From: a virus
Reading direction: 5' to 3' (one strand)
DNA length: 64,000 nucleotides
IMG/VR virus record: IMGVR_UViG_3300031111_000010
Span: 1 to 64,000 of that record
Position numbers and translations under genes: made by a program
Shown here: positions 27,400 to 55,052 of the stretch, piece by piece
Layout of the letters: each line of letters opens with the position of its first letter
How positions within the stretch are numbered: position 1 is the first letter of the stretch
Notes under the pieces: model-generated
Seen by the model: only the letters and a program-made list of their open reading frames with translations
Told to the model about the DNA's origin: nothing
Databases searched by the model: none

Positions 27400-27489
27400 T
27401 GGAGGAAAGGACAGGATTCGAACCTGCATTAGTGTTACCTAAATAGAGTTTTCAAGACTCATCGACTATTCCCCACTGTCAACCTTTCC
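27400..27489 (-). tRNA. tRNA-Ser (anticodon UGA)
   Basis: Acceptor stem GGAAAGG/CCTTTCC, anticodon loop CTTGAAA identical to the E. coli tRNA-Ser(UGA) loop, long variable arm with TTAG/CTAA stem as in class II tRNAs, T-loop GGTTCGAATCC, and an encoded CCA. The discriminator is U, where serine tRNAs normally have G. Reads UCA (and other UCN by wobble). Confidence 0.92.
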
Positions 27490-27537
27490 TTATATGTCAC
27501 CGATTTGTTTAGTATTCATCTTCTTACCTTTTAATAC

Positions 27538-27624
27538 CGGAGAGTACTGGATTTGAACCAGTGCGAGTGTTACCCCGACCTAGGATTAGCAATCCTGTGC
27601 ATTACCATACTCTGCCAACTCTCC
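27538..27624 (-). tRNA. tRNA-Ser (anticodon GCU)
   Basis: Acceptor stem GGAGAGT/ACTCTCC, loop TTGCTAA with anticodon GCU, long variable arm (CGGG/CTCG), T-loop GGTTCAAATCC and discriminator G; CCA is not encoded. Reads AGC and AGU. It lies 48 bases upstream of the other serine tRNA. Confidence 0.92.
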
Positions 27625-36030: not shown

Positions 36031-36066
36031 GAAGGGATGGTAGTTTTCTACCATCCCTTCTTTTAT
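36031..36066. terminator. Strong bidirectional terminator
   Basis: 13-bp perfect stem GAAGGGATGGTAG/CTACCATCCCTTC with a TTTT loop and T-run. Separates the 49-aa gene from the convergent tail operon. Confidence 0.88.
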
Positions 36067-37112
36067 TGGGTATATTGAGTAACCGTATCAGCAACTTTAT
36101 TGGATACTTTACTGCTTATTCTTTTCACTGTCGGTATAACTTCACGAACTTCTTTTTCCCTTGCATTATCTCTTGCTTTGGCATTTGCAACACTATTAGT
36201 ATCGACGTTGATAATAGTACCATACTGAATGGTTCCTGCATATAATGGACTTAAATCTTGGAATGTCAATTGTAAATTACAGCTACTTGGATATCCTTTT
36301 ATATAAGGAGAATTCCATGTTGGTTGAACAGCTATAAGAGCACATGTTCGATAGTCTATAAATGGCACTGGAAATGTTGATACTTCAAACATATAAGGAA
36401 AATCAATAGTAACACCACCTTCATTAATTAAATCAGGAGATGAGTATTTCATTAATGCTTGGATAGGTTCAATCAATTGTTTTTCTGGATGATTATCATT
36501 ATTTCTCATTTCATTAAACAATACAAATTCAAGAATCAATTGTCTTCTATCTGAATTAGCATAATACATTGGTGTATCTATTTTCCATTTTTGTATACTA
36601 TGTCCCGGCATAGCTGCAAGTGCCTTCTGTGCCAAACCTTCTACTGTAATAGACTCTTTTGCTCTTTTAGGAGAAGATGTTGATTTATCTTTAGCACTAT
36701 CTGAAAGATATTGTTGTTCAACTTCTTTTAGTTTAGCACCAATATAATTTCCTATTGCATTTGATCCTGATTTTAATTCATTGGTTAATTTGACAAGTGA
36801 TCTTGCTTTCTGAGCTAATCTTGATGCTACTGATTCATATGCTTCCCAATGATGAACAACATTCTCATTTAAAGATAATGGTGCGAGAAATTCAAATGTA
36901 ACATTAGTATCAGCCGTTGAGATTGGAGCATCAGCACCTTTACTATATTGATCAAGTATTTTCTTAGGTCGCATTCTAATCCATACAGAACCACTTCTGC
37001 TTTCTTCTCCTTTTGACCATGGAGAAATACCAAAAGGTCTTCTATATAGTTTTACGTCCTGTGATTCTTTATCTCTTGTTGATCTTGGTCCTTTTCTATG
37101 TGTTGTTGCCAT
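36063..37112 (-). CDS. Baseplate tail-tube cap, T4 gp48-like, 349 aa
   Basis: Contains N-S-D-R-R-Q-L-I-L-E-F-V-L-F, followed by F-P-Y-M-F-E-V-S-T-F and W-N-S-P-Y-I-K-G-Y-P-S-x-C-N-L-Q-L-T-F-Q-D-L, consistent with the gp48/gp54 tube-initiator proteins. Length near T4 gp48 (364). It would cap the baseplate hub and nucleate the tube. Starts directly on the stop of the tape-measure gene. Confidence 0.72.
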   Translation of the reverse strand: MATTHRKGPRSTRDKESQDVKLYRRPFGISPWSKGEESRSGSVWIRMRPKKILDQYSKGADAPISTADTNVTFEFLAPLSLNENVVHHWEAYESVASRLAQKARSLVKLTNELKSGSNAIGNYIGAKLKEVEQQYLSDSAKDKSTSSPKRAKESITVEGLAQKALAAMPGHSIQKWKIDTPMYYANSDRRQLILEFVLFNEMRNNDNHPEKQLIEPIQALMKYSSPDLINEGGVTIDFPYMFEVSTFPVPFIDYRTCALIAVQPTWNSPYIKGYPSSCNLQLTFQDLSPLYAGTIQYGTIINVDTNSVANAKARDNAREKEVREVIPTVKRISSKVSNKVADTVTQYTQ

Positions 37113-38704
37113 TAGAATCCTTGTGAGTTAAGTGTATTTATTGCTAAACCAAAATTATCTATTTCATCAGGAACTTGTTTAACATCTCCTTGTCCACCAT
37201 TACTTCTTAGTCCTGAGAACCAGTTACCAACTCCCCTTCTTAATTGTGCTGCATATGTTCCTTCTTGTATTCTTTTCATTGCTTCTTGGTTTTCTTTATG
37301 CCATTGTTCTTCTCTTTTTGCTTCTTCTTCTTTCTCTTTTACTCTTGATTCAACACCAGCTACATCAACCCCTCTTGCTATCTCTGCTGCTTTTAATGAT
37401 CTTGCATTTTCTAATGTTGATTTTTTTGTTGGATGATTTGTAAGCATCATATCCATTTTCATACCACGAATATTATTAGCCAATTCTTTACCTACCATTG
37501 GAATAGAACTAGCAGCATTAGCAGCATTTTCAATCATACCATTTATTAGACCCGTAAAAAAATTACTCAATTTTATTCCAAAATTTACGATATCATTTAT
37601 AAACTGACCAGTAAGAAAGTAATCCCATCCTGCTTTCATTGCTTTCATCCACTCATCCAGTTTGGCTTGTACATCCATTTCCTCACCAAACATTTTCATA
37701 GCAAGATTCATTGTATTTAAGAATAATGAAAGTGGAAGTTCAATCCAATCATCTAAAGCTGCCCAAAGACCTTCTCTTACCTTATCCCATTTAGTACCTA
37801 CTGTTTTCTCATATGCTTCCATAAAATCCAATACATCTAATAAAATAGCTATTGGAAGAAGTAATCTTTTTATTCCTAATTTTAACAATCCCATTGATTT
37901 TTTTAAATAAGGAATATCATCTATCCACTTTAGCCACTTTGATTTTCTCAACATTGCTAATCCTTCACCAAGTTTCTTAAATTTAGGACTCATAGAAATC
38001 AATCCACCAAGACCCATTAAAGTAGCAAGTCTATCACCCAAGTATCCCGCCAATCCTTTTATTATACCTGCTAATATCAGACCCAATAAAGTAGCCATAC
38101 CTATATCTTTAGCTGTAACTTTCTTATTGAGAAAATCCATCTTGAATCGTTTCATTTGTAAAGCAAGCATTTTTCTTAAAAGTTTTACTTGAGTACCCGC
38201 CCATTTAGGTGTTTTTTGAAACAGGAATTCCCATGCTCCTTTGGTTGCTGATACAATAGAATCTTTCATAGAACCTAACAAAGCAAACCATTCTGATTCC
38301 TCACCGAATAAACTGAGAAAATGAGATTTTAATTCTTGGAAGAATCGAGTAAAGTGTTGAGCGACATTCATTACCATGTTCTTTGTTTTACCAAGAACAC
38401 CAAAACTCATTTTGTTTGCCAATCTAAATGTTGCTTCGGTCATGTCTAATACTTTACCCCATGCACCTTCACGTTTCTTTATAAATCTACCATTTTCATC
38501 TCTGGCTCTTTCTGTAAATGCTCTTTGTCTTTTCTGTTGTTCTTCTTGTTCATCAGTAATTTTCAACCATTTGTCAAGCATCTCACGTTCTTTCTCGCTC
38601 ATTGCTTTGACTTGTGCTGAACTACCAACATACATTTTTAAAATGTTTACTGCTTCAGAAACAGTCTTATTAAGAGATTTTAATTCTTGATCTGTAGTTG
38701 CCAT
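37112..38704 (-). CDS. Tape-measure / hub protein, T4 gp29-like position, 530 aa
   Basis: Helical N-terminal third with A-R-D-E-N-G-R-F-I-K-K (a motif common in T4-type tape/hub proteins), hydrophobic segments near 205-225 and 280-295, and coiled-coil C-terminus. Immediately downstream of the frameshifting chaperone gene, the classic place for a tape measure. About the size of T4 gp29 (590). Confidence 0.7.
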   Translation of the reverse strand: MATTDQELKSLNKTVSEAVNILKMYVGSSAQVKAMSEKEREMLDKWLKITDEQEEQQKRQRAFTERARDENGRFIKKREGAWGKVLDMTEATFRLANKMSFGVLGKTKNMVMNVAQHFTRFFQELKSHFLSLFGEESEWFALLGSMKDSIVSATKGAWEFLFQKTPKWAGTQVKLLRKMLALQMKRFKMDFLNKKVTAKDIGMATLLGLILAGIIKGLAGYLGDRLATLMGLGGLISMSPKFKKLGEGLAMLRKSKWLKWIDDIPYLKKSMGLLKLGIKRLLLPIAILLDVLDFMEAYEKTVGTKWDKVREGLWAALDDWIELPLSLFLNTMNLAMKMFGEEMDVQAKLDEWMKAMKAGWDYFLTGQFINDIVNFGIKLSNFFTGLINGMIENAANAASSIPMVGKELANNIRGMKMDMMLTNHPTKKSTLENARSLKAAEIARGVDVAGVESRVKEKEEEAKREEQWHKENQEAMKRIQEGTYAAQLRRGVGNWFSGLRSNGGQGDVKQVPDEIDNFGLAINTLNSQGF

Positions 38705-38706
38705 TA

Positions 38707-39629
38707 TTATTTATCCATTGCTTTTTTCTCTGCTTCTAAATCCTTGATTAATATATTCACATAAATATCTTTTTCAAATTCTGCCATTCTGTTTGTTTCA
38801 GATACTGGCATATTACATTTTTTAGCAAGAATATATTGTTGTTCAATTATATCCTGAAAATTACCCCACAAATTAATTAACCAAAAAAATTTTGCTGAAT
38901 TGGTATATCACTTACTTCTTCATATTGACAATGTTGGCATTTTACCTTCTGTTCTAATTTCCATCCAAAAGTCATATTATCTACTTCTTTTCTTATAGCT
39001 TCCATTCCTGCCAGTGGAATGTTCTCTATGAAATACATTCTATCTTTGATATCAATATCACTATCCAATCCAGATGGTGTTTCGATTTTATCTATTGCAC
39101 ATGCATGAAACATAACCTGAAAGATATATGCTTTCTGAGTATCACTGAGACTTTTTGGGAAGTATTTTGGTTTCATATCTTCTTTCTGGTGTTTTCTTTT
39201 TATATGTCTCAGATGCACTTTTATCTGACCAAGTTCTACAATATGATTTTCTTCACTATCTAAATTTGTTAATTCCAATTCATCCAGATTTACTCTGTTC
39301 AATGATTGAGATTTACATTTAGGACAATCAAATTTAAACTCAAGTACTTCTCCTTTTGTCTTCTTACGAATTTCCATCAATAAGAACATTTTATCATATA
39401 GATAAAGATCATCCATATTGAACCCTTCAGATGAAACACTTGATGATATCAAATCATCAAGTGCCTGTTCTTGTACTACATAATTTGTTTCATTCTCATA
39501 AGTGAGAAGTCTTTTAATTTGACCCGTTGTTAATGGTTTGAATTTAACTACTTTTTTACTTCCCGGTAATTGACATTCAAACTCATATACATTTACATAA
39601 TCTAAAAAATTCGGTTTGTTATCTGACAT
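38707..39629 (-). CDS. Predicted -1 frameshift product of the gp26-type gene
   Basis: Near the stop of the 250-aa gene the sequence reads CAA AAT TTT TTT GGT TAA. A -1 slip on the seven-T run enters a frame open for about 60 more codons (F-F-W-L-I-N-L-W-G-N-F-Q-D-I-I-E to A-M-D-K), ending at 38707. That extension has no good start of its own. Long and short forms from a slippery site before the tape-measure gene are the known pattern of tail-assembly chaperones (lambda G/GT). Confidence 0.7.
38877..39629 (-). CDS. Baseplate hub/tail assembly chaperone, T4 gp26-like, 250 aa
   Basis: Matches the T4 base-plate family pattern: F-K-P-L-T-T-G-Q-I-K-R-L-L near residue 30, C-P-K-C near 106 and C-Q-H-C near 236 (zinc ribbons), F-G-W-K-L near the end. 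Late promoter at 39651. Zero-frame product of the frameshift pair. Confidence 0.75.
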   Translation of the reverse strand: MSDNKPNFLDYVNVYEFECQLPGSKKVVKFKPLTTGQIKRLLTYENETNYVVQEQALDDLISSSVSSEGFNMDDLYLYDKMFLLMEIRKKTKGEVLEFKFDCPKCKSQSLNRVNLDELELTNLDSEENHIVELGQIKVHLRHIKRKHQKEDMKPKYFPKSLSDTQKAYIFQVMFHACAIDKIETPSGLDSDIDIKDRMYFIENIPLAGMEAIRKEVDNMTFGWKLEQKVKCQHCQYEEVSDIPIQQNFFG

Positions 39630-39650: not shown

Positions 39651-39658
39651 TATTTATA
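39651..39658 (-). promoter_or_regulatory. T4-type late promoter TATAAATA
   Basis: Exact octamer on the minus strand, 22 bases upstream of the gp26-like gene. Confidence 0.75.
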
Positions 39659-39660
39659 TA

Positions 39661-40203
39661 TTAACCACCAGTTTCAGTGAAACTTGTTTCATGGTAGCTG
39701 TAAGTAAATGTTACATCAAACTGAGCGATTTCAGTGGTAGAGTAGTCCATTTGAATTTGTGCTACTTCTTTAGGCCATGCATCGTGAATTGTGAACTCAA
39801 GAATGACTTGACCTTCATAACCAATCATCTGTAATCTCTGGTCTGCCATAAACACATCATGAGTACTATAGAAGTTAGTCACTGGATCATGGCATAGATT
39901 TGACCATTCCTCAAATGTTTGTCTAATCTTAGCGTCTTTATCCACATTGAAAGTAATAACAACATCTGTATAGGTATGTTTACCCGGAAACTTCCAATCG
40001 AATCCTTGCCAGTTTAGAACCACTTCTTCAAGAGCAGTTGATGGCATCTGAGCAGTCTTTACTAAATAAATAGCATCCTCTTGACTAACACTCGCACCAA
40101 GACCTCCCGGCCATTGTGGTTGGTAGTAGAACAGGCTTGACTTTGCTCCATCTCCGAATCTTGCTTTAAATGCTTCTATATTAAATGATCTTACATCAGG
40201 CAT
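39661..40203 (-). CDS. Tail tube protein, T4 gp19-like, 180 aa
   Basis: Ends with the tube signature H-D-A-W-P-K-E-V-A-Q-I-Q-M-D-Y...Q-F-D-V-T-F-T-Y-S-Y, matching T4 gp19 (W-P-x-x-V-x-x-L/I-x-x-D...F-x-V-T-x-x-x-x-Y). Full-length. AAGGAGATAAGAAA ribosome site. Polymerises into the inner tail tube. Confidence 0.88.
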   Translation of the reverse strand: MPDVRSFNIEAFKARFGDGAKSSLFYYQPQWPGGLGASVSQEDAIYLVKTAQMPSTALEEVVLNWQGFDWKFPGKHTYTDVVITFNVDKDAKIRQTFEEWSNLCHDPVTNFYSTHDVFMADQRLQMIGYEGQVILEFTIHDAWPKEVAQIQMDYSTTEIAQFDVTFTYSYHETSFTETGG

Positions 40204-42498: not shown

Positions 42499-43377
42499 TT
42501 ATGCTGGTAGTACTGACGATTCACTTGAACTTGAGCTTAATGAACTTGAACTTAAAGAACCACAAACCAAGAACTCAATATTTGTTACACTAAATGATGT
42601 ACTATCAGCATAATTAGTAAATGTTAATAGAGTTAAGTCATTTGAAGTCCATTCAATATCAAATGTTCCCATACCAGAAGGAGTAACAGTACCATATTCA
42701 CCAGCAGAAACATTAGTTGATAAAAGTTCATTAGTTGGAAAATCAAAAGAACGTAATTCCATTGTTAGTGGAATATCCGGTGTCCATGTAACTCTTATTT
42801 TACTAGGTCTAAATCCAGATGCCCATGGCGATGGCTCAGTCAATGGAGCTAAACCAACACCCGGATAAGCGAAAGTAACACTATCCCATTGTTCTAATTC
42901 AGAATTCCATGTTGCTCCCCCTTCAAGATCCTCCCATATTGTATTATCAAAATAGGTTTGCCAAGTAGGAGGACCAAATGGACAAGATGAACTACTGCTA
43001 TTACTAGTCGAACTACTGCTATTGCTTCCCCCTAATTCTTCTACTGTTCCATAACAACCTGCAAAGGTAGCACTTGGTGCGAGTACTCTTGTACAATATA
43101 AATTCTGTCCAAATTGTAAGAAACCAGCAGCAGATAGTAAATCTTCATATGATTGACCTCTCTTTGAAAATCCGTTTGCTGATACTGATAATGCTTCCTC
43201 TGGTCTACCAAAAGTATCTATCAATTCATCAATGGAATTTACTAATTGAACTTTTAATTCCGGTCCTTTCCATGTATCCCTTAATATAATAACTCCTATT
43301 GACGTAGCAACAGCAGGTATTGTTGTGCTTAAATCAATTTCATTTACATCTACAAGGGGTGATAAATACATTGTCAT
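42499..43377 (-). CDS. Sheath N-terminus fused to a lectin-like domain, 292 aa
   Basis: Residues 1-113 are nearly the same as the sheath N-terminus (M-x-M-Y-L-S-P-L-V-D-V-N-E-I-D-L through A-P-S-A-T-F-A-G), with high nucleotide similarity. A Ser/Asn linker (117-135), a jelly-roll-like domain (136-270) and a poly-Ser tail follow. The sheath middle and C-terminal domains are gone. Inference: it inserts into the sheath or collar lattice and displays the lectin. AGGAGAATAAT ribosome site. Confidence 0.85.
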   Translation of the reverse strand: MTMYLSPLVDVNEIDLSTTIPAVATSIGVIILRDTWKGPELKVQLVNSIDELIDTFGRPEEALSVSANGFSKRGQSYEDLLSAAGFLQFGQNLYCTRVLAPSATFAGCYGTVEELGGSNSSSSTSNSSSSSCPFGPPTWQTYFDNTIWEDLEGGATWNSELEQWDSVTFAYPGVGLAPLTEPSPWASGFRPSKIRVTWTPDIPLTMELRSFDFPTNELLSTNVSAGEYGTVTPSGMGTFDIEWTSNDLTLLTFTNYADSTSFSVTNIEFLVCGSLSSSSLSSSSSESSVLPA

Positions 43378-43407: not shown

Positions 43408-43415
43408 TATTTATA
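43408..43415 (-). promoter_or_regulatory. T4-type late promoter TATAAATA
   Basis: Exact octamer on the minus strand overlapping the stop of the upstream adhesin gene; drives the sheath-lectin fusion. Confidence 0.7.
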
Positions 43416-45867
43416 AAATAAAAGGTTCAGTTGGTACTGTGAAATCAGATTTATATAAACATTTATATTTAGTAACTCTCCATTCATCCCAATAACTTCT
43501 AAAATTCTCAGAACCAGCGTTATTTCCTCCAAAATGAAATCTAGTTTGTGTTAAATCATTTCCATTATCTCCATGAGTTTCTTCTGTTATTCTTATACCA
43601 TTTACAAAATATCTCCATATATAACCTTCTCTTGTTAAAGCTATATGACTCCATACATCATTAGCTATAACTGCTCCATTAGAAGGAGAAACTACATTTA
43701 CATAAACACCAGAACCATATGTTTGAACAAATAATACACAAGGACTTGATGTAGCTTCATGTATAATCCAAAGACCACCTGCTGTAGCATTATTTCCTAT
43801 TTGAAAAACTCTACCATATGCATCTCCCAATCCATTATTAGCTGGTCTTATCCATCCTTCAATAGTAAAGTCTTCTGTTCTTAATGCTTCTGGTGGGAGA
43901 GCAGTTCTAGAAAGTAAAGTATCCGTATCACCATCACATCCTAAAGAAGAAGACCCAAATTTGAATTGTGCTGTTCTCAATCCAGCATTATCATAATGAC
44001 CAAAAGCATCTAATCCACGAACATCATCATCTACTACTTGACTAAGGTTTGGTCCTTCAAAATGGACAAGAGATATAACTTTAGCACTTGTACTTGAAGA
44101 ACTACTCACTGAATTTGATGAACTACTAAATGAGCTTGAAGATTCAGAAGAACTTGAAGAACTCTCACTTGAAGAAGAAGAACTATATGATCCTTCTATA
44201 AGCATGTGATCATTAAAAATATACATTGTTGTTTTATTTTTATTTGTATCTAATAGGTCATCTAAAACTCTCCATTCAGCAACTATACCATCCCATCTTG
44301 AATTTGGATTATTAATTAATCCACCTAATCCAAAATTATAATCATCATAATCATCATTTCCTGAAGAACCAGTACCATCATCATAGAAAATCTCACCTAA
44401 ATATACTTTAGGATTAGTTACTGTCATAGTTTGAGAATAAGAATACCATACATCACCTGATGCTGTATCACTAAAACTAGTACTTCTACCACCAGTTACA
44501 TTACACCATGCTCTTGCAGGATTAGTTGTATCATACCACAAACATCTATCATTTTGACCCATAAAAGGACCACTAGCAGTAGTTTTTATTGCAGGATCAT
44601 TATCAGCTTTAAAGAACATTTCTATTTGAGCAGATGTATAAAATCTTGTTTTCTTAATATTAGTATCAAGATATTGATCAACACCATTGAAATGCCATCC
44701 ATAACCCATTGGTGTATCTTCTACCCATGCACTTGCTGGTAAAGTATTTGTTATATTAAAACTTCCATTTGCTGAATTATAAAAAGTAGATGCACTTGCT
44801 GGTTCATCAAAGTGTATTACTTGTCTATATTGTTGATTATTTCCAAGTACAGCTTCACTCCATACTGATTGTGCTGGTGTAGTTCCTTTTATACCAACAT
44901 TAGCTGAATTATCAACACCATCAATTCTCACTATTATGTTTCTATTTACACCTATATTTAAAGGCATAGCAAACCAAATTATAGGATTACCAGTATTCCA
45001 ATTTAATATCTCAGCAGGATATTCAGTACCATCTGATGCTAATTTTATATGTAAATTCTCTAATGGTTTTCCACTTTGAACTATTGGAGATGTTTCATCA
45101 AGTTTTAACATTACAGGATAAACATTATTTCTGAATATATTAGCACCACTTGTATGATAAAATAGTTCTATTGGTGTAAATGAGAAAGAGCTTGAGCTTG
45201 ACGATAAACTTGAGCTTGAGCTTGAGCTTGAAGAACTATAACTTGAGCTTGAGCTTGAGCTTGAAGAACTTAGGCTTGAAGATGAAGATGATCGTTCTGA
45301 TTCGCTACTTGATGATTTACTACTTGAACTAAACTCAATTGACCATGCTGTATCTCTTACATAGAAGTAATCATAATTGAAATTGACAGTACTTTCTAAT
45401 AACACATCTCCTTCATGTTGAGAAAAAGAAACTTCTCCCATTGTGCTAGGCCAGATACCTACAAAGATAACTTCTAATATTGCATATCCATAATTATTAG
45501 TGACAACAAGAGAACAATCAACTGAATACTCATCATGATATTCAGATATTTTATTGTTATTATTGTTAATATAACTCATCCAATCGAATAATAATTTCCA
45601 ATTATAAAGCAATGAATCGACAGTAAAGCTAACCATCCATGGATCATATTCCATTGGTATCATTCCACGCTTTGTTTTATTACCTTGCCATCTATGTTCT
45701 TCATTTGCTAAAGTAATTGATGGAAGCATTGTGGTATGGATATTCATAATAAATGGATTATTAGCACCGATAGAATTCTCACCGGGAATTAATGGAAACA
45801 CTAATTGATAATTCGTAGGTGTTCCCTTATCCATATTATTCAAATTTGATGTGTTACATACTATCAT
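43411..45867 (-). CDS. Tube-fold-anchored modular adhesin A, 818 aa
   Basis: Residues 1-180: tail-tube-like domain (F-V-G-I-W-P-S-T-M-G-E-V-S-F then F-N-Y-D-Y-F-Y-V, as in gp19). 181-232: poly-Ser. About 235-545: DUF2341-like plus LamG-like modules. About 549-590: poly-Ser. 595-818: C-terminal LamG (F-T-I-E-G-W-I-R-P, W-R-V-T-K). No ribosome site; the late promoter abuts the ATG. Likely tail-displayed receptor or glycan-binding protein. Confidence 0.8.
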   Translation of the reverse strand: MIVCNTSNLNNMDKGTPTNYQLVFPLIPGENSIGANNPFIMNIHTTMLPSITLANEEHRWQGNKTKRGMIPMEYDPWMVSFTVDSLLYNWKLLFDWMSYINNNNNKISEYHDEYSVDCSLVVTNNYGYAILEVIFVGIWPSTMGEVSFSQHEGDVLLESTVNFNYDYFYVRDTAWSIEFSSSSKSSSSESERSSSSSSLSSSSSSSSSSYSSSSSSSSSSLSSSSSSFSFTPIELFYHTSGANIFRNNVYPVMLKLDETSPIVQSGKPLENLHIKLASDGTEYPAEILNWNTGNPIIWFAMPLNIGVNRNIIVRIDGVDNSANVGIKGTTPAQSVWSEAVLGNNQQYRQVIHFDEPASASTFYNSANGSFNITNTLPASAWVEDTPMGYGWHFNGVDQYLDTNIKKTRFYTSAQIEMFFKADNDPAIKTTASGPFMGQNDRCLWYDTTNPARAWCNVTGGRSTSFSDTASGDVWYSYSQTMTVTNPKVYLGEIFYDDGTGSSGNDDYDDYNFGLGGLINNPNSRWDGIVAEWRVLDDLLDTNKNKTTMYIFNDHMLIEGSYSSSSSSESSSSSSESSSSFSSSSNSVSSSSSTSAKVISLVHFEGPNLSQVVDDDVRGLDAFGHYDNAGLRTAQFKFGSSSLGCDGDTDTLLSRTALPPEALRTEDFTIEGWIRPANNGLGDAYGRVFQIGNNATAGGLWIIHEATSSPCVLFVQTYGSGVYVNVVSPSNGAVIANDVWSHIALTREGYIWRYFVNGIRITEETHGDNGNDLTQTRFHFGGNNAGSENFRSYWDEWRVTKYKCLYKSDFTVPTEPFIL

Positions 45868-45872
45868 AATCT

Positions 45873-45880
45873 TATTTATA
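45873..45880 (-). promoter_or_regulatory. Late promoter TATAAATA abutting start codon
   Basis: Only five bases (AGATT) separate the octamer from the ATG at 45867, so T4-type initiation would give a leaderless mRNA. Confidence 0.7.
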
Positions 45881-45948: not shown

Positions 45949-48900
45949 TTAAAGTGTAAGAAGATCGCCCATAATATTATGTGATACCGCTTTAGCATAA
46001 GCATCTGAACGTCCAGCAAGAGACAGTCTGAATTCAGACATAAGCCACTCATGTTTGTCTCCATAGACAGGACGATACCCATACACTTGAAAAAGAACGG
46101 AATCGGTGTCAGTACTTGATTCTAATAATACTTCTCCATTATTATATATAGTTAGTGTACTTGATGTTCTCTTAACTATAAAATGAGTCCACTCACCAAC
46201 AACAATATCAGCATCCTCGTAATTTGTGCTGCTGCCCCCACTATCAAGATCAACATAAATCTTTACATTTGCGTGAAAGGCTATTCCTTGGTAAGAATTT
46301 CCAGAAGCATTTCTGCATATACTGGCAACAAACGTGGGAGGGAGTTCTTGTCTGTTATATAAAAAGTCTAAAGTAAAATCTCCTGATATAGAAAAGTCTT
46401 CTGATATATAATCATTAACTCCATCAAAGTGGATATGAGCATATCCATCTTCTCTTGAAAAAACTGGTGTTCCGTGAAGTGTTCCATCATGAGCATTTAC
46501 AGTAGAATCTGTGGCATCTTCTACTAAATGCCAAACCGCTTCATAGTCCTCATCCCATACACCTTGAGCAGCAATTTCTCCTGTCTCCCCTATATAACCT
46601 GTTATTCCGTCACATGAGTTAATTGTGAAGTTGTCAAGTGTTACATCAACAACCCCATTATTCTCTTGCTCAAAAAATAATTGAACAGTGAGATCATTTG
46701 AATTACTCGTTACCAAACTTATTCCATCTGTATTACCTGAACCCCATACCCACTCATCAGTCACCCCCCAATAATAGGCAGTTATCAATCCACTACTATT
46801 TCTAGTAAGTCTTAACTTACCAGTAGTATGAGCAGTCCACAAAGAGGTTTCAGTTCTATCTGTTCCATATACTCTATATTCTTGATCCCCATCAGAACTT
46901 TTCTGCATGTTAATCAAACCAATTTGGGAACCAGCATCCAATAATCTGAATATAGGTAAGTGATGAAAACCATCATCTGGAGTTGTGAGAGAAATAATAT
47001 CAAAATCAATTTGAATATCAAATGCTCCAGACAGAATAAAATTACTATCAATTTGAGTTTTGTGATTTGCATCATCTCCAAGAGAATTATATTCCAATTT
47101 ATTATTTTGAATACTCAGATAATCAGAACCAACAGAAACGGTTTTTGTCCATTTGGCAGAGTCAGGAGAGCTACCATCTTCTCCTGTGAAATCATCAAAT
47201 ACTTCAGGAGAAGTTATTACCCGTTCGTAATTATTTTCTTCACCAAAAACAACCTTGATGGTAGTGTCTTCACTACTGGAAGCTGACGGAATTCTCGCAT
47301 GAAGAATACCAAGATCATTTGTTGGGTTCCATTCTTCTACTTCTGTGTAACATTCAACATCATCTACAGTGATATGGAGATACTTCCAATCTGTAGTCTC
47401 TGTAGCAGATACAATAGTAGATGGAAGAACTATTCTTACCGGAAAGTTGGTAAGAGTGGCATCAATTTTACTACTATCTATTGTGTAATATAGTGGTGGT
47501 GTAGTAGAACTTGAGCTTGAACTTGATTGACTTGAACTACTTCCTTCTGTTAATAGTATATTTTTCAATACTGCATTTGTAGCTTTTAACCATGCAGCAG
47601 ATCGAGTAATAGAAGATATCCGAACTTCTCCAATTTGCCCATTAAACCAAATGGACGATGGATTATCCCTATTATCTTTTCCAATTTTTAGTGAATAATC
47701 ATTTTGCAGACTTCCTGATCCTAAAGTATCATCATTATTTTTTGTCACTGTATCTTCTATTCCAGAAACAAATAGCTTCAGAATTTCACTCGCACCCGAT
47801 CCATCGTAAGTATGAGCAAGATAATAAAATTCATCATCTTCTAAAATGATGTCTGCGGTATAATCTTTTACATCTGATGAACCTTCTCTTAAGTAAACCC
47901 TGAACTGCTGTGAGTCAGTGAATTCAAAATTTATTGCTCCGACTGAAGAATTGCGATAGTTGCCAATGATCACACCCCTGTCGTTATCTCTTTCACCAAG
48001 AACAAATGCTTCAAATGAATGTTTTTCATCTCCTTGTAAATCCAGAACATTCACATCAGTGTCGGTTCCCATATAATCGTTACTGCCATCAAAATCTATT
48101 GCTTTACCAAATACTCCATCTACTAAATCACCAGAAGTCATACTACCATAAGTAGTACAATGTCTCTCATGGGAAGTAGAATCAAGGACCACCTTTGAAG
48201 CATCCGTTGGGTCTTGATTCATATGGTAAACCATTTCAAAACCAGAATTCCATACATTCTGTGCAGCAGATGTTCCAGTAGAACCAATATAAGAATTATT
48301 ACTTCCATATTCTAATTTAAGATTGATATCATGTCCACTTGGAATAAATGGAACTTTAGTCCATATTGTTCCAGATGTTTCCCAACTTTCAACTTCAGTA
48401 AATAATTCAGTACCACCAGATGTTACATGTAAATTCTCATATGAATTAGCACTTGTAAAATCAGATGGAAGTATTATACCTACTGGAAAATCTATTAAGT
48501 TCTCATCTATATTATTACTATCAATGGTGTAATATAATGGTGGTGTAGTACTACTTGAACTTGAACTTGAAAGAGAACTACTACTACTTGAACTTGAACT
48601 TGAAAGAGAACTTGAAGAACTTGAACTTGAAAGAGAACTTGAAGAACTTGAGCTTGAAGAACTTACTGATGGACAAATAACAGTACCACTATTGACAATA
48701 AAATTATCAATATCACATCTATTATTATCACCTGCATTATAGTCATACATTAAGAATCTAACAAAACAATCATCTGTAGTCATTGTTTTACTACCAGCAG
48801 AAGACCAACTACCAGAATTAGCATTATCATAATATACTGATACTGTTGATCCACTTCTTGTTATTCTTAATCTACCATAATCATTTGTTCTTCCATAAGT

Positions 48901-50793
48901 ATCATCATCAGGCGAACCTGTACTAAATCTTCTCAAGTAATTATTTCCACCTTGATATTGTGGTTTTATAAAAACAAAATATCCATTATCAAAGTGAATT
49001 TCTATAGCCATTCCAGCAGCAAAATTATTATTAGTTACTAAATTTTTATAATCACATTGAATATCAAAATCACCACTTATCTTAAATTTTGAATCAATAT
49101 ATGCATTATCACCACCAGCATTATTTGAACCAGTTAAAGTAAATCTAGCAGCAGATGCACTTATTTTTACATCATAAGCTGTAGGTGAATAATCAGTAGT
49201 TATCGCTGTCCATCTATTAGGATTAAGATCATCACCATCTGCTCCTGAAAAATCATCACTTGCTGTTATGAAGCAAGAGCTTGAACTTGAGCTTGAAAGA
49301 GAACTACTACTACTTGAACTTGAGCTTGAAAGAGAACTACTAGAAGAATTACTTGAGCTTGAAAGAGAACTACTAGAAGAATTACTTGAGCTTGAAAGAG
49401 AACTACTACTCAAAGAAATACTTGAAGAACTGCTTGAATAACCATCACTTGGTGGTAAGAATCCTTCTGGTGGTGTATATTCTAATTGATATGTTCTTGA
49501 TCTAATTTTACATTTTTGTTTAATATCAGTATTAATAGCAAAAAATGCACTTGATCCTATAAATTCAGTTTCAGTATAAGATGGAGAACCAGAAACACCC
49601 GGAAGACCTGTATCCCATGTTCCATTTTTTCCAAACCAAATATCACCAGTACCCATATCCCATGCTATCATCATAACATCCGGTGCAGCCCAATTATGAT
49701 TATAGGTAAAATAAGTACCATCATGATATAATCTATTAAAATAATTTATAGTACCAACACCAACAGCACTTCCATCTTGTCCTATAAATCCATTATCTCT
49801 ATGATTACCATCCATTAAACCAAATCCCGGCCAATGAAATGAAGTAGAGCTTGCTTCTATCCATTCTAACTCTATATACCATTTACCAGTGGTAGTATAT
49901 CCAACAGTTCTCATTATATCATTATTTGATGTATTATTATGATGTATTTCTCTATCTTGATCAAAAAAATCATAATTTGATGCTGTTGTATATGTAGAAT
50001 CAAATCTGAATAAATCTAAAAATGTACTTGAAGATTCAGAACTTGAAGATTTAGAGCTTGAGCTTATCGATGAACTTGAAGAACTCAGGCTTGAGCTTGA
50101 GCTTGACATAGAACTTGAGCTTGAGCTTGAAGAAGAACTCAGGCTTGAGCTTGAGCTTGACAGAGAACTTGAGCTTGAGCTTGAAGAAGAACTCAGGCTT
50201 GAGCTTGATGATGATATCCAAGATCGACTACTAGATGATTGAGAACTTGAACTAAATTCAGCAGTCCATTCTGTATCCCTAATATAGAAGTAATCATAAT
50301 TAAAGTTTACAGTACTTTCTAATAGCATATCTCCTTCACGTTGAGAAAAGGATATCTCACCAATCTGCATAGGCCAAATATCTACAAAGATGATTTCTTT
50401 CACCATATTACCATAGTTATCAGTAATCACCATTGCAGCATCAACAGAATACTCACTATGATATTCAGCTATTTTATCATTGTTATTGTTGATAAACTGC
50501 ATCCATTTTCTCAGTAAATTCCAGTTAGCAAGATTTACATCTACAACAAAACTTACTAACCAAGGATCAAATTCCATAGGTGATAGAGCACGTTTAGATT
50601 TAGTTCCATGCCATCTAAGTTCTTCTACTGCTATTGAAACTGGTGGAACAATAGCTGAATGTATGTTCATAACAAAAGGATTATTAGCGGCTATAGTAGT
50701 CTCTGTGGGTATCTTAGGAAATATCAATTGATAATTCGTAGGAGTACTCTTATCTATGTTATTCAAATTTGATGTGCTACATACTATACTCAT
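45949..50793 (-). CDS. Tube-fold-anchored giant modular adhesin B, 1614 aa
   Basis: Residues 1-180: tail-tube-like domain. 181-256: poly-Ser. About 257-450: SPRY-like domain (G-K-W-Y-I-E-L, W-D-M-G-T-G-D-I-W-F-G-K-N-G-T-W). 451-512: poly-Ser. 513-705: ConA-like jelly roll. 706-755: poly-Ser. 757-850: DUF2341. 855-1055: LamG. Then a second DUF2341-ConA-LamG series to the end. Module borders repeat A-W-L-K-A-T-N-A-V-L-K-N-I. Carbohydrate binding is inferred from module types. Confidence 0.82.
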   Translation of the reverse strand: MSIVCSTSNLNNIDKSTPTNYQLIFPKIPTETTIAANNPFVMNIHSAIVPPVSIAVEELRWHGTKSKRALSPMEFDPWLVSFVVDVNLANWNLLRKWMQFINNNNDKIAEYHSEYSVDAAMVITDNYGNMVKEIIFVDIWPMQIGEISFSQREGDMLLESTVNFNYDYFYIRDTEWTAEFSSSSQSSSSRSWISSSSSSLSSSSSSSSSSLSSSSSSLSSSSSSSSSSMSSSSSSLSSSSSSISSSSKSSSSESSSTFLDLFRFDSTYTTASNYDFFDQDREIHHNNTSNNDIMRTVGYTTTGKWYIELEWIEASSTSFHWPGFGLMDGNHRDNGFIGQDGSAVGVGTINYFNRLYHDGTYFTYNHNWAAPDVMMIAWDMGTGDIWFGKNGTWDTGLPGVSGSPSYTETEFIGSSAFFAINTDIKQKCKIRSRTYQLEYTPPEGFLPPSDGYSSSSSSISLSSSSLSSSSNSSSSSLSSSSNSSSSSLSSSSSSSSSSLSSSSSSSCFITASDDFSGADGDDLNPNRWTAITTDYSPTAYDVKISASAARFTLTGSNNAGGDNAYIDSKFKISGDFDIQCDYKNLVTNNNFAAGMAIEIHFDNGYFVFIKPQYQGGNNYLRRFSTGSPDDDTYGRTNDYGRLRITRSGSTVSVYYDNANSGSWSSAGSKTMTTDDCFVRFLMYDYNAGDNNRCDIDNFIVNSGTVICPSVSSSSSSSSSSLSSSSSSSSLSSSSSSSSSSLSSSSSSSTTPPLYYTIDSNNIDENLIDFPVGIILPSDFTSANSYENLHVTSGGTELFTEVESWETSGTIWTKVPFIPSGHDINLKLEYGSNNSYIGSTGTSAAQNVWNSGFEMVYHMNQDPTDASKVVLDSTSHERHCTTYGSMTSGDLVDGVFGKAIDFDGSNDYMGTDTDVNVLDLQGDEKHSFEAFVLGERDNDRGVIIGNYRNSSVGAINFEFTDSQQFRVYLREGSSDVKDYTADIILEDDEFYYLAHTYDGSGASEILKLFVSGIEDTVTKNNDDTLGSGSLQNDYSLKIGKDNRDNPSSIWFNGQIGEVRISSITRSAAWLKATNAVLKNILLTEGSSSSQSSSSSSSTTPPLYYTIDSSKIDATLTNFPVRIVLPSTIVSATETTDWKYLHITVDDVECYTEVEEWNPTNDLGILHARIPSASSSEDTTIKVVFGEENNYERVITSPEVFDDFTGEDGSSPDSAKWTKTVSVGSDYLSIQNNKLEYNSLGDDANHKTQIDSNFILSGAFDIQIDFDIISLTTPDDGFHHLPIFRLLDAGSQIGLINMQKSSDGDQEYRVYGTDRTETSLWTAHTTGKLRLTRNSSGLITAYYWGVTDEWVWGSGNTDGISLVTSNSNDLTVQLFFEQENNGVVDVTLDNFTINSCDGITGYIGETGEIAAQGVWDEDYEAVWHLVEDATDSTVNAHDGTLHGTPVFSREDGYAHIHFDGVNDYISEDFSISGDFTLDFLYNRQELPPTFVASICRNASGNSYQGIAFHANVKIYVDLDSGGSSTNYEDADIVVGEWTHFIVKRTSSTLTIYNNGEVLLESSTDTDSVLFQVYGYRPVYGDKHEWLMSEFRLSLAGRSDAYAKAVSHNIMGDLLTL
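47541..47603 (-). repeat. Module-border repeat, copy 1
   Basis: Encodes A-W-L-K-A-T-N-A-V-L-K-N-I-L-L-T-E-G-S. Nearly identical DNA at about 50833 and 51836, in the neighbouring adhesin. Likely recombination points for domain shuffling. Confidence 0.8.
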
Positions 50794-50798
50794 AATCT

Positions 50799-50806
50799 TA
50801 TTTATC
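50799..50806 (-). promoter_or_regulatory. Variant late promoter GATAAATA abutting start codon
   Basis: Same A-A-A-T-A-A-G-A-T-T-A-T-G context as the adhesin A promoter, with G in place of the first T. Weaker or decayed. Confidence 0.5.
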
Positions 50807-53168
50807 CTGAACTTGAACTTGAACTTGAACTACTTCCTTCTGTTAATAGTATATTTTTCAATACTGCATTTGTAGCTTTTAACCATGCAGCAGATCGGGC
50901 AATATTAGAAATACGAACTTCCTCTACTTCTCCTGCTCTATATCCAATTGTTGAGTCTGGTGTTCCACCAATACCAATGGTATCAATACCTGTAGGCCAA
51001 GCATCTCCACCAGTATCCTCTTGCTCTGTTCCTCCATTAGTATATAATTTTCTACTCGTAGAAGTAACTAACGCTGAAGCTAAATAAGCAAATTCTCCTG
51101 CATCAAGACTTACTGTTCCATTTAAAAGAGTAGTACCAGTCGAGTAAAAATTTAATCTTCCAATGTTTCCATACATATTAAGTAATACCATTTGATCTGG
51201 TTCACTAACATCTCCAATTCCAACTGACGGATTGTTATTTGATGCTGCTGTAATAGTAGCACGACCAGCACATTCTAAGGTAGCAGGGTAATCTGTTAAA
51301 CCAGAAACACTTGCAGTAACAATATCGTTGTTACCATCAAAATCTATTGCTTTACCAAATACTCCATCTATCAAATCATCTGAAGTCATTGATCCATTAA
51401 ATGATCCATTATGTAAATTAGAAGTACTATCTAATAATGTTCCACCAGTTGGATTTTGACTCATATGATATACAGCTACAAAGTTCTCATCCCATACTGT
51501 CTGTGCAGCACTTGTACCCGTAGAACCAATATAAGAATTATTACTATTATATTCTAATGTCAGTACTGTATCTCTGTTTGCTGGTATCCAAGGAACTTTA
51601 GTCCATATTGTTCCAGATGTTTCCCATGTATCTACTTCAGTATAAAGTTCATTACCACCTGATACAGTAACATGTAAATTCTCATATGAATTAGCACTTG
51701 TAAAATCAGATGGAAGTATTATACCTACTGGAAAATCTATTAAGTTCTCATCAATCTTACTACTATCTATTGTGTAATATAGTGGTGGTGTAGTACTACT
51801 TGAACTTGAACTTGAAGTAGAAGAACTTGAACTACTTCCTTCTGTTAATAGTATATTTTTCAATACTGCATTTGTAGCTTTTAACCATGCTGATGATCTT
51901 TGTATATTAGAAACTCTTACTTCTCCTATTTGACAATTTAGATAATCAACAGAGAAATAATTATCTGGTACTTTCGCTAATAATGGAGGACTAAAATCAG
52001 CAGTTCCATTAGGAGCAGAGATAGAATCTGTGTCATCATTTTTGTATATATTAAAAGTACCATTTACTTCATATGATGCAGCAAAGTATTCAAATACATC
52101 AAGATTGACAGGACTAATAGTTAAAATTACTTCATTACCATCTACACCAAATCTATAATCCCATGAACTACCATTATTGAAATTATAAATTCTAAGTCTA
52201 TCTGAAAAATCTGATCTATCGGAAACAAAAATAGGAGCATAATTATTACTACCACCTAAAACATCTATTAAAGTAAATACTTCAACTGTTCCTATGGTAT
52301 TATCCATTACATCTGGCATACTTATATAATCATTACTACCATCAAAATCTATTGCTTTACCAAATACTCCATCTACTAAATCACCAGAAGTCATAGAACC
52401 ATGGGTATCACCATGATTTCCATTAACTGTGGAATCTAAAATTGTATCTGTTCCATCGGTTGGGTCTTGACTCATATGATATACAGCTACAAAGTTCTCA
52501 TTCCATACATTCTGTGCAGCAACTTCTCCTGTTTGACTTATATTCCAAGGAACAATAACATCACAAGAATTTATAGCAAAATTATCAAAGGTATAAACTA
52601 ATGGTGTTGCTGAAGTAGAATTACGATATGCCATAAATCCTACATAAACATCGTCTTCTATCCAAGTATGTGCTGAACCTATTTGTGACCATGAACCATC
52701 TTCTTCATTTTTATAATAAGCTGATACTTGATTTCCTACTCGTTTAATTCTAAATTTATTAGTATAAGGATTCGATTTGCTACTTATATTAACTTCATCC
52801 CAAGAATCATTACTACCAGCATCATCATATCTGAAATAAGCATAGGGGGTTCCCGATCTATTTATTAGTCCTACAAAACCCCATTCAGAAGTATTATTGT
52901 CTTTATTCGGAGAAATATAAACTCCACCTTGTTGAATACTTACTACTTGACCTGTAACAGTTACAAAGTCAAACTCTATTTCAAAATCACCTTTAATTAT
53001 TCTATTGAGAGTTTTATAATGATTTCCGCTATTACCTGATGAAATGGTCATTTGTGCTTCATTATCATCTATAACAGTAGAACCTGTTCCACTATTACCA
53101 GCAGCATCATACCACCATTCTTTTGAGAAATCATCTCCATTTGTTCCTGTAAAATCATCAATTATCAT
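50802..53168 (-). CDS. Adhesin C, unanchored second half, 788 aa
   Basis: Begins directly in a ConA-like domain (I-I-D-D-F-T-G-T-N-G-D-D-F) with no tube-like anchor. Order: ConA (1-205), LamG (215-420), short poly-Ser, DUF2341 (438-540), LamG (545-765), poly-Ser end. Its ATG overlaps the stop of the 624-aa gene (ATGA) behind AAAGGA. In adhesin B the same junction (Y-E-R-V-I-T-S-P-E-V-F-D-D-F-T-G) is continuous, so this looks like a gene split. Confidence 0.78.
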   Translation of the reverse strand: MIIDDFTGTNGDDFSKEWWYDAAGNSGTGSTVIDDNEAQMTISSGNSGNHYKTLNRIIKGDFEIEFDFVTVTGQVVSIQQGGVYISPNKDNNTSEWGFVGLINRSGTPYAYFRYDDAGSNDSWDEVNISSKSNPYTNKFRIKRVGNQVSAYYKNEEDGSWSQIGSAHTWIEDDVYVGFMAYRNSTSATPLVYTFDNFAINSCDVIVPWNISQTGEVAAQNVWNENFVAVYHMSQDPTDGTDTILDSTVNGNHGDTHGSMTSGDLVDGVFGKAIDFDGSNDYISMPDVMDNTIGTVEVFTLIDVLGGSNNYAPIFVSDRSDFSDRLRIYNFNNGSSWDYRFGVDGNEVILTISPVNLDVFEYFAASYEVNGTFNIYKNDDTDSISAPNGTADFSPPLLAKVPDNYFSVDYLNCQIGEVRVSNIQRSSAWLKATNAVLKNILLTEGSSSSSSTSSSSSSSTTPPLYYTIDSSKIDENLIDFPVGIILPSDFTSANSYENLHVTVSGGNELYTEVDTWETSGTIWTKVPWIPANRDTVLTLEYNSNNSYIGSTGTSAAQTVWDENFVAVYHMSQNPTGGTLLDSTSNLHNGSFNGSMTSDDLIDGVFGKAIDFDGNNDIVTASVSGLTDYPATLECAGRATITAASNNNPSVGIGDVSEPDQMVLLNMYGNIGRLNFYSTGTTLLNGTVSLDAGEFAYLASALVTSTSRKLYTNGGTEQEDTGGDAWPTGIDTIGIGGTPDSTIGYRAGEVEEVRISNIARSAAWLKATNAVLKNILLTEGSSSSSSSSSG
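50833..50890 (-). repeat. Module-border repeat, copy 2
   Basis: Same 50-60 bp border element as at 47541, at the 3' end of adhesin C. Confidence 0.75.
51836..51893 (-). repeat. Module-border repeat, copy 3
   Basis: Same border element inside adhesin C, between its two module series. Confidence 0.75.
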
Positions 53169-55039
53169 TCGGTTATTTCCTTTGAATAATTATTGCTACC
53201 ATATTCCAATTTCAATACTGTATCACTTGCAGATGGAATAAATGGTACTTTAGTCCAAATTACTGCTCTATCATTAGAAGGTTCCCATACATCTACTTCA
53301 GTATAAAGTTCTGTATTACCACCTGACACTGTAACATGTAGATTTTGCCATCCAGAAGTAGGTTGACTTGAAATAAATCCTGTACCTGAAACATTAATAC
53401 CTACTGGAAAATTTGTTAAGTTCTCATCAATTTTACTACTATCTATTGTATAGTAAAGTGTTGATATAGTAGAAGTAGAAGCAGAACTTACACTTGAACT
53501 TGAAGATTCTGAGCTTGAACTACTCACTGAACTTGAAGATTCTGAGCTTGAACTACTTACTGAACTTGAAGATTCTGAGCTTGAACTTGAATAACTTGAA
53601 CTTGAATAACTTGAACTTGAACTTGAGCTTGAAAGAGAACTTGAAGATTCACTTGAGCTTGAACTTGAGCTTGAACTTGAAAGAGAACTTGAAGATTCAC
53701 TTGAGCTTGAACTTGAAAGAGAACTTGAAGATTCACTTGAGCTTGAACTTGAAAGAGAACTTGAAGATTCACTTGAGCTTGATTGACTTGAGCTTGAAAT
53801 ATTATAATATTCTATTTCACAAGGATAAATTAAAACACCACCACCTTCTGTTGTTGATGTTGCTCCCCACTTATTATCACCACCATAATAACGACTTGTA
53901 TCATTTCTTAATTTAAACCATCTTGCAGTCTGTGGTGTATCGAAGTCTACTCTAAATGCAAATTCATATCCAGTTCCTAAAACTGAAGGTGAATGAATTG
54001 GTGGTTTAATCCATGTATCAATCCATTCCCATGTTATTCCATCATCTGATTTATATGCACCAACTACTCCACTATCATTATCAACCCATGCATCATAAAT
54101 ACGACTTGATGATGATGTTCTAAACCAGAAAATAATACCATTGATTGTCATTGGTTCTGTTGTAGCCACCCAAAATGACGTATTATAACCAACATAATCA
54201 TTATCTGCTACTGCATATATATTACCATCTATTAGTCCGGGATATGATGCTGAGTTTTCTGTTACAAGAGGATTAGGATTCCATCCACTCCATGCACCTA
54301 CAAGATACGTCGAAGAAGAACTTGATTTTGATGAACTTGATTTTGATGAACTTGAGCTTGAACTTGAAAGAGAACTTGAAGATTCACTTGAGCTTGAACT
54401 TGAGCTTGAAGAACTCAGGCTTGAACTTGAGCTTGAAGAACTCAGGCTTGAACTTGATGATGATGTCCAAGATTTAGAAGAAGAAGATCGAGAAGAAGAA
54501 CTAAATTCAGCAGTCCAAGCTGTACTTCTCACATAGAAATAATCATATTCAAAGGTGACCATACTTTCTAATACAATATCACCTTCTCTTTGTGACATTC
54601 CAATTTCTGCTAACTGAGTAGGCCAAATATCAACAAACACTATTTCCATAACAGGTTTTTTATAGTTGTTCGTAATTATCATTGATGCATCAACTGAATA
54701 TTCTTTATGATATTCAGCTATTTTATCACAATTATTATTGATATAACTCATCCACCTGAATAATAAACTCCAATTATCCAATCGTGAATCAACAACAAAG
54801 TTAACCATCCAACTTTCAAATTCTAATGGGTTTAAGTCATACTTGACTTTATTACCTTGCCAACTTATCTCATTAACCCCTATATTCAAGGATGGAATAA
54901 CAGCAGAGAAGATATTCATTACGAAAGGATTGTTAGACGCAATACTACTTTCAGTTGGTATCAGGGGAAATACCAACTGAAAATTTGTAGGTGTGGCCTT
55001 GTCTATATTATTAAGGTTGGATGTATTGCATACTATCAT
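53165..55039 (-). CDS. Tube-fold-anchored adhesin D (first half), 624 aa
   Basis: Residues 1-179: tail-tube-like domain (V-D-I-W-P-T-Q-L-A-E-I-G-M-S-Q, F-E-Y-D-Y-F-Y-V). 180-245: poly-Ser. About 246-425: discoidin-like (F5/8 C-type) domain with P-G-L-I-D-G-N and A-R-W-F-K-L-R. 430-525: long poly-Ser with E/Y/L interruptions. 530-624: DUF2341, cut short at the stop. Adhesin C continues the architecture. Start is leaderless-type. Confidence 0.8.
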   Translation of the reverse strand: MIVCNTSNLNNIDKATPTNFQLVFPLIPTESSIASNNPFVMNIFSAVIPSLNIGVNEISWQGNKVKYDLNPLEFESWMVNFVVDSRLDNWSLLFRWMSYINNNCDKIAEYHKEYSVDASMIITNNYKKPVMEIVFVDIWPTQLAEIGMSQREGDIVLESMVTFEYDYFYVRSTAWTAEFSSSSRSSSSKSWTSSSSSSLSSSSSSSSLSSSSSSSSSSESSSSLSSSSSSSSKSSSSKSSSSSTYLVGAWSGWNPNPLVTENSASYPGLIDGNIYAVADNDYVGYNTSFWVATTEPMTINGIIFWFRTSSSSRIYDAWVDNDSGVVGAYKSDDGITWEWIDTWIKPPIHSPSVLGTGYEFAFRVDFDTPQTARWFKLRNDTSRYYGGDNKWGATSTTEGGGVLIYPCEIEYYNISSSSQSSSSESSSSLSSSSSSESSSSLSSSSSSESSSSLSSSSSSSSSSESSSSLSSSSSSSSYSSSSYSSSSSESSSSVSSSSSESSSSVSSSSSESSSSSVSSASTSTISTLYYTIDSSKIDENLTNFPVGINVSGTGFISSQPTSGWQNLHVTVSGGNTELYTEVDVWEPSNDRAVIWTKVPFIPSASDTVLKLEYGSNNYSKEITE

Positions 55040-55044
55040 ACATT

Positions 55045-55052
55045 TATTTATA
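55045..55052 (-). promoter_or_regulatory. Late promoter TATAAATA abutting start codon
   Basis: Five bases before the ATG at 55039; third adhesin gene with this arrangement. Confidence 0.7.

Follow-up and report, generated by a model that had tools for sequence, protein, structure and literature searches.

Xu, Hendrix and Duda reportedly described a conserved tail-gene frameshift in 2004, and Vladimirov, Gautam and Davidson are said to have found in 2022 that several T4-like groups keep this frameshift. In the lambda system, both gpG and gpGT attach to the tape measure, and tube protein is recruited through the T part; the 2016 review that sets this out held T4 to be the exception (PMC5009743). 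A passage of PMC10885494, relaying Vladimirov et al. 2022, speaks of some T4-like phages with a short gene plus a fused long gene and no frameshift, and one in PMC12846349 cites the same work for poly-T −1 signals in the T4-like gene for the N-terminal part of the tail assembly chaperone (TAC-N). The TAC locus of Pseudomonas phage Adele, Vandenendeviridae and Andersonviridae likewise has a T-rich −1 slip near the TAC-N stop and an unannotated C-terminal part (TAC-C), but it belongs to another phage family and uses a GTTTTT motif (PMC12846349). A tail-chaperone frameshift in T4-like phages has therefore already been reported, and the locus described here is a further, predicted case in a divergent clade.

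The window, which is the whole 64,000-nucleotide stretch analysed, comes from an 81,176-base IMG/VR virus record that is itself a fragment. Its minus strand carries a T4-type tail cluster consisting of sheath, tube, a gp26-like gene, a small −1 ORF, a probable tape measure and a weakly gp48-like gene (Table 1). The predicted frameshift locus lies between the tube and tape-measure genes, in the order tube, TAC-N, TAC-C, tape measure. The candidate tape-measure gene had no family match of its own below 0.01 and is probably a tape measure as judged from its homologues: phrog_58 was matched by 10 of the 21 aligned, and others matched further "tail length tape measure protein" families. Late-promoter-like boxes, such as the one between the tube and TAC-N genes, number 23 in the window versus 13.7 expected, any single site being weak evidence.

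Table 1 Features of the tail-chaperone locus and its neighbours in the window.
Feature	Position	Strand	Matches and remarks
Tail sheath gene	42426-40576	-	
Tail tube protein (gp19-like)	39661..40203	-	PF06841; phrog_45 E 3e-31
TATAAATA, putative T4-late-promoter-like box between tube and TAC-N genes	39651..39658	-	
Strong Shine-Dalgarno sequence AAGGAG	ahead of TAC-N start (39629)	-	duplex energy -8.7 kcal/mol
TAC-N, T4 gp26-like tail assembly chaperone, short form, 250 aa	38877..39629	-	PF12322 E 2e-26; phrog_150 E 6e-27
Overlapping -1 slippery heptamers A AAT TTT (38892-38886) and T TTT TTT (38889-38883)	38883..38892	-	
TAA stop of the short form, 3 nt past the T TTT TTT heptamer	38877..38879	-	
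TAC-C, -1 frame extension, 58 codons plus stop, gp51-type C-terminal domain	38707..38883	-	phrog_634 E 1.5e-5
TTG, sole start-like codon in the -1 frame ahead of the conserved domain	38869..38871	-	without usable ribosome-binding site
Probable tape-measure protein, 530 aa	37112..38704	-	ATG 2 nt past TAC-C stop
gp48-like tail tube cap (weak)	36063..37112	-	phrog_230 E 0.01; gene order 29-48 as in T4

The gp26-like ORF ends in ATT CAG CAA AAT TTT TTT GGT TAA (minus strand; CAA to TAA at 38894–38877), and the seven-T slip that an earlier note had pointed out here reads as two heptamers, both of the canonical form X XXY YYZ in the zero frame, with A AAT TTT ending 6 nt and T TTT TTT 3 nt ahead of the stop. 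The open stretch of the −1 frame begins 28 nt upstream of this stop and ends with the TAA at 38709–38707; this end had been placed correctly, whereas the length past the stop is 56 codons rather than about 60. Joining the two frames gives a predicted TAC-N and TAC-C fusion (TAC-NC) of 307 aa, with IQQNFFWLINLWGNFQ as the predicted junction-spanning stretch. Within the 19 long ORFs of the window, T TTT TTN occurs in frame at 5 of 8603 codons, so that the chance of one such site in the last four codons of a gene is about 0.002. A downstream RNA stem conserved among relatives was not found (z about 0 in the window, averaging −0.3 to −1.2 across relatives), and a Shine-Dalgarno-like stimulator upstream of the slip was present at only 5 of 45 junctions. 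Strong stimulators are not required for frameshifts of the lambda G-T type.

We then compared both reading frames with known protein families. On its own, the −1 frame hits phrog_634, the family of T4 gp51 annotated as "baseplate hub assembly catalyst" (E value in Table 1, and 6e-5 within the fused product). When the two frames are fused by a −1 shift, the phrog_150 match grows from profile positions 7–232 (96 bits) to 7–281 of 282 (103 bits). T4 gp26 and gp51 are paralogues, and gp51 matches phrog_150 almost from end to end, with its C-terminal part matching phrog_634 as well, which identifies T4 gp51 as a natural in-frame fusion of the two parts in the window. Since gp51 consists of a gp26-type domain followed by this C domain, the predicted frameshift product would be a gp51-like long chaperone. 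The earlier note had set the locus against the separate gp26 and gp51 of T4; these are indeed two genes, but gp51 is already the fused long form and a paralogue of gp26. A second TAC-N, as a T4-type duplication would need, was not found in the 81-kb record, which is a fragment; within the window we met just one TAC-N and one TAC-C, and no separate paralogous gene of the T4 type for the long form.

A search of PDB sequences with the TAC-N profile gave no match. The AlphaFold2 model of TAC-N (pLDDT 90) had as its top PDB fold matches 3klu (YqbN), 2ob9 (HK97 tail assembly chaperone) and 3fgx, all known or likely phage tail chaperones, at Z 6.4–6.5 over 87–91 residues of the N-terminal domain; the next rows were at Z 4.5 and 3.4, and all were under Z 8. 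The match to 2ob9 was moderate (Z 6.4, rmsd 4.9, 90 residues). This modelled fold is more in keeping with a chaperone than with a structural hub, although at Z below 8 it falls short of proof. The chaperone reading corrects an annotation, as the gene is still called "baseplate hub" and "baseplate hub assembly catalyst" in databases.

Conservation of the site was investigated in relatives gathered with the sheath protein (80 related IMG/VR loci, 59 with a readable junction), a direct search of viral contigs with the TAC-N protein having given no match. T TTT TTT or T TTT TTC was located 0–3 nt before the stop, together with a −1 extension of 55–73 codons, at 58 of the 59 readable junctions, with L067 as the lone exception. 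NNT TTT TTY was in phase at all 45 distinct junctions (window counted in), and, with relatedness ignored, the naive probability that synonymous codon choice gives NNT TTT in every one of them is about 10^-15.5. Similarly, AGT TTT TTC or TCT TTT TTC was present in 78/78 cyanophage-type loci read, so that the serine codon ends in T whichever of the two families it belongs to. The conservation of the T run in relatives, which had been proposed as a check, was thus borne out. We observed the same site in Cr30, a Desulfovibrio phage, Mosig, S-CAM7 and S-H68, as well as in XacN1, Atu_ph07, Munch, GAP32 and Vibrio phage 2.275. The T run is partly explained by the FF at the TAC-N end, which is also conserved as protein. 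Downstream, the TAC-C extension is conserved as protein in 29 distinct relatives, and substitutions in the group of the window number 280/166/499 at −1-frame codon positions 1/2/3, with an excess at the third.

These data also bear on two explanations that do without a ribosomal shift. A homopolymer indel error in assembly could have split one continuous ORF, homopolymers being error-prone and the window a single metagenomic contig; however, the same split at the same place in more than 130 independent contigs, and also in cultured isolates, with differing run lengths and flanks, refutes this for practical purposes. Transcriptional slippage on the T run, placing an extra U in some mRNAs, would yield the same fusion protein, and the run comprises seven T in the window and more in some relatives. 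In many relatives, however, it consists of six or seven T and then C, and in all 78 cyanophage-type loci of six T and then C. Six T followed by C is too short for usual polymerase slippage. Furthermore, the T TTT TTY phase is kept, a requirement of ribosomal shifting but not of polymerase slippage; the short C-ended runs and the kept phase together leave polymerase slippage a weak rival, which we regard as very unlikely.

Initiation signals in the −1 frame were evaluated as the upstream duplex energy with the anti-Shine-Dalgarno sequence, relative to random positions. The −1 frame had been described as without a start of its own; this overlooked the TTG at 38871–38869, which would give 54 aa, but it holds insofar as the codon has no usable ribosome-binding site (−2.7 kcal/mol versus a random mean of −2.4), and we rejected separate initiation at TTG 38871 because its binding energy is not above background. 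That TAC-C is a small gene of its own (gp51) translated from this codon would be in keeping with the TTG in frame, with the annotation of gp51 as its own CDS in Cr30, Mosig, S-CAM7 and S-H68, and with the cyanophage loci, where ATGs occur in the TAC-C frame and annotators list TAC-C as a gene. Among the relatives, however, the best −1-frame starts average −2.1, the level of random positions (−2.4), whereas TAC-N starts average −10.3, and for 10 of 45 the first 22 codons of the −1 frame include neither ATG nor GTG nor TTG. An own start would likewise leave unexplained the slippery codons, which are invariant despite synonymous alternatives, and WLIN, a −1-frame stretch that is conserved although it lies ahead of the TTG. 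We therefore consider separate translation of TAC-C highly improbable.

The programmed −1 shift that the earlier note had proposed for a chaperone pair before the tape measure draws support from conservation, from a −1 frame homologous to the C-terminal domain of gp51, from the missing initiation signals and from the position of the locus. On this sequence evidence, the long chaperone is very probably made by programmed −1 ribosomal frameshifting at the end of TAC-N; we infer the slippage itself and its efficiency, and, from lambda, the chaperone roles of the two forms. Most ribosomes would terminate at TAA 38879 and release TAC-N, whereas a minority, with tRNAs on AAT/TTT or TTT/TTT, would re-pair one base back on the seven-U run, read on as TGG TTA ATT in the −1 frame and produce the 307-aa TAC-NC with its gp51-type domain. 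If the lambda gpG/gpGT pair is a guide, many copies of TAC-N and few of TAC-NC would coat the tape-measure protein, the TAC-C part would recruit tail tube subunits, and both forms would depart before tail completion. The lambda system resembles the window in a −1 shift towards the end of the gene that precedes the tape measure and in a fused form that is the minor product (PMC5009743); it differs in its unrelated sequence and other slippery heptamer, and in that the lambda shift was measured whereas that of the window is predicted from sequence.

T4 gp26 and gp51 belong to the same families as the products in the window (phrog_150 and phrog_634), and a matching short and long form would be expected; T4, however, has two divergently placed paralogous genes, whereas the window has one gene and would obtain both forms by the predicted −1 shift. 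Likewise, in cyanophages, Pelagibacter phage Mosig, Caulobacter phage Cr30 and GAP32-like jumbo phages, T TTT TTY near the gp26 stop is followed by the gp51 domain in the −1 frame. TAC-N of the clade of the window is about 20–24% identical to the cyanophage and Cr30 proteins, and in Mosig, Munch and XacN1, unlike in the window, the stop follows 24–33 nt past the slip site. The locus had been called an intermediate arrangement, a view at odds with the presence of the predicted frameshift in cyanophages, Cr30, GAP32-like jumbo phages and the clade of the window: the frameshift looks widespread and the T4 duplication derived. A frameshifted chaperone would then be a general feature far beyond T4.

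A second T4-type tail-chaperone lineage has TAC-C in the +1 (= −2) frame, with several loci lacking any start codon there, and shows 179/36/438 substitutions by codon position. The set comprises LR756508, L091–L100, L102–L105, L107, L108, Flavobacterium immuto and Microcystis Mel-JY01, the labels outside the L091–L108 series being L002, L192 and L193. L101 and L106 were excluded; their TAC-C is encoded by a −1-frame ORF that has an ATG of its own directly past the TAC-N stop, with no slippery site. YTT TGG CC just before the TAC-N stop is common to all loci of the lineage except LR756508 (L002 by label), and is likely the +1 site, at which the P-site tRNA could move from YTT to TTT. The CTT TGA site of prfB provides a comparable +1 shift. 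GXN1, SP-15 and LIS04 (L004, L194, L195) also have TAC-C in the +1/−2 frame, with a site that differs from YTT TGG; they share NCC CGA TT near the TAC-N end, with TTC TTT or TTT TTT upstream, and a +1 shift and a Mu-like −2 shift are both possible.

In the clade of the window, the tape-measure ATG is 2–5 nt past the TAC-C stop and mostly has a weak ribosome-binding site (38702–38714; L011, L012, L019–L023), and this combination would allow tape-measure translation to be coupled to shifted ribosomes. We tentatively propose, as a possibility well short of likely, that the device for making the long chaperone has switched repeatedly, and that coupling to shifted ribosomes may fix the ratio of TAC-NC to tape measure. 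The devices in this proposal would be −1 frameshifting in the window, cyanophages and GAP32-like jumbo phages, +1 frameshifting at YTT-TGG in Flavobacterium immuto, Microcystis Mel-JY01 and marine relatives of a 484-kb phage, and duplication in T4. The −1, +1 and duplicated loci form a natural series on how a two-form ratio is kept as the decoding device changes. In many relatives (L031, L033, L036, L054, L056, L071, L072, L088), a terminator-like run (CCTTTTTT or similar) was observed between the TAC-C stop and the tape-measure start.

Other features of the window concern its tail-structure genes. Apart from the ordinary tube gene (39661–40203), three large proteins (43411–45867, 45949–50793 and 53165–55039) begin with a gp19-like tail tube domain and continue with other domains, among them Laminin_G_3 in two and DUF2341 in two; the protein at 43411–45867 also has poly-serine linkers. 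A truncated second tail-sheath gene (42499–43377), encoding the sheath N-terminus, a poly-serine linker and an unrelated C-terminus, sits just upstream of the full sheath gene. Two phage tRNA-Ser genes with anticodons TGA and GCT (27400–27624) fit the proteins with serine runs. Each of the three tube-domain fusion genes is preceded by ATAAATAA with ATG following within 4 nt (45865–45879, 50791–50805 and 55037–55051), and these genes have a weak Shine-Dalgarno sequence or none. The pattern of ATAAATAA followed by ATG is enriched in the window (9 versus 3.5 expected), and the sites may be T4-like late promoters giving leaderless mRNAs.
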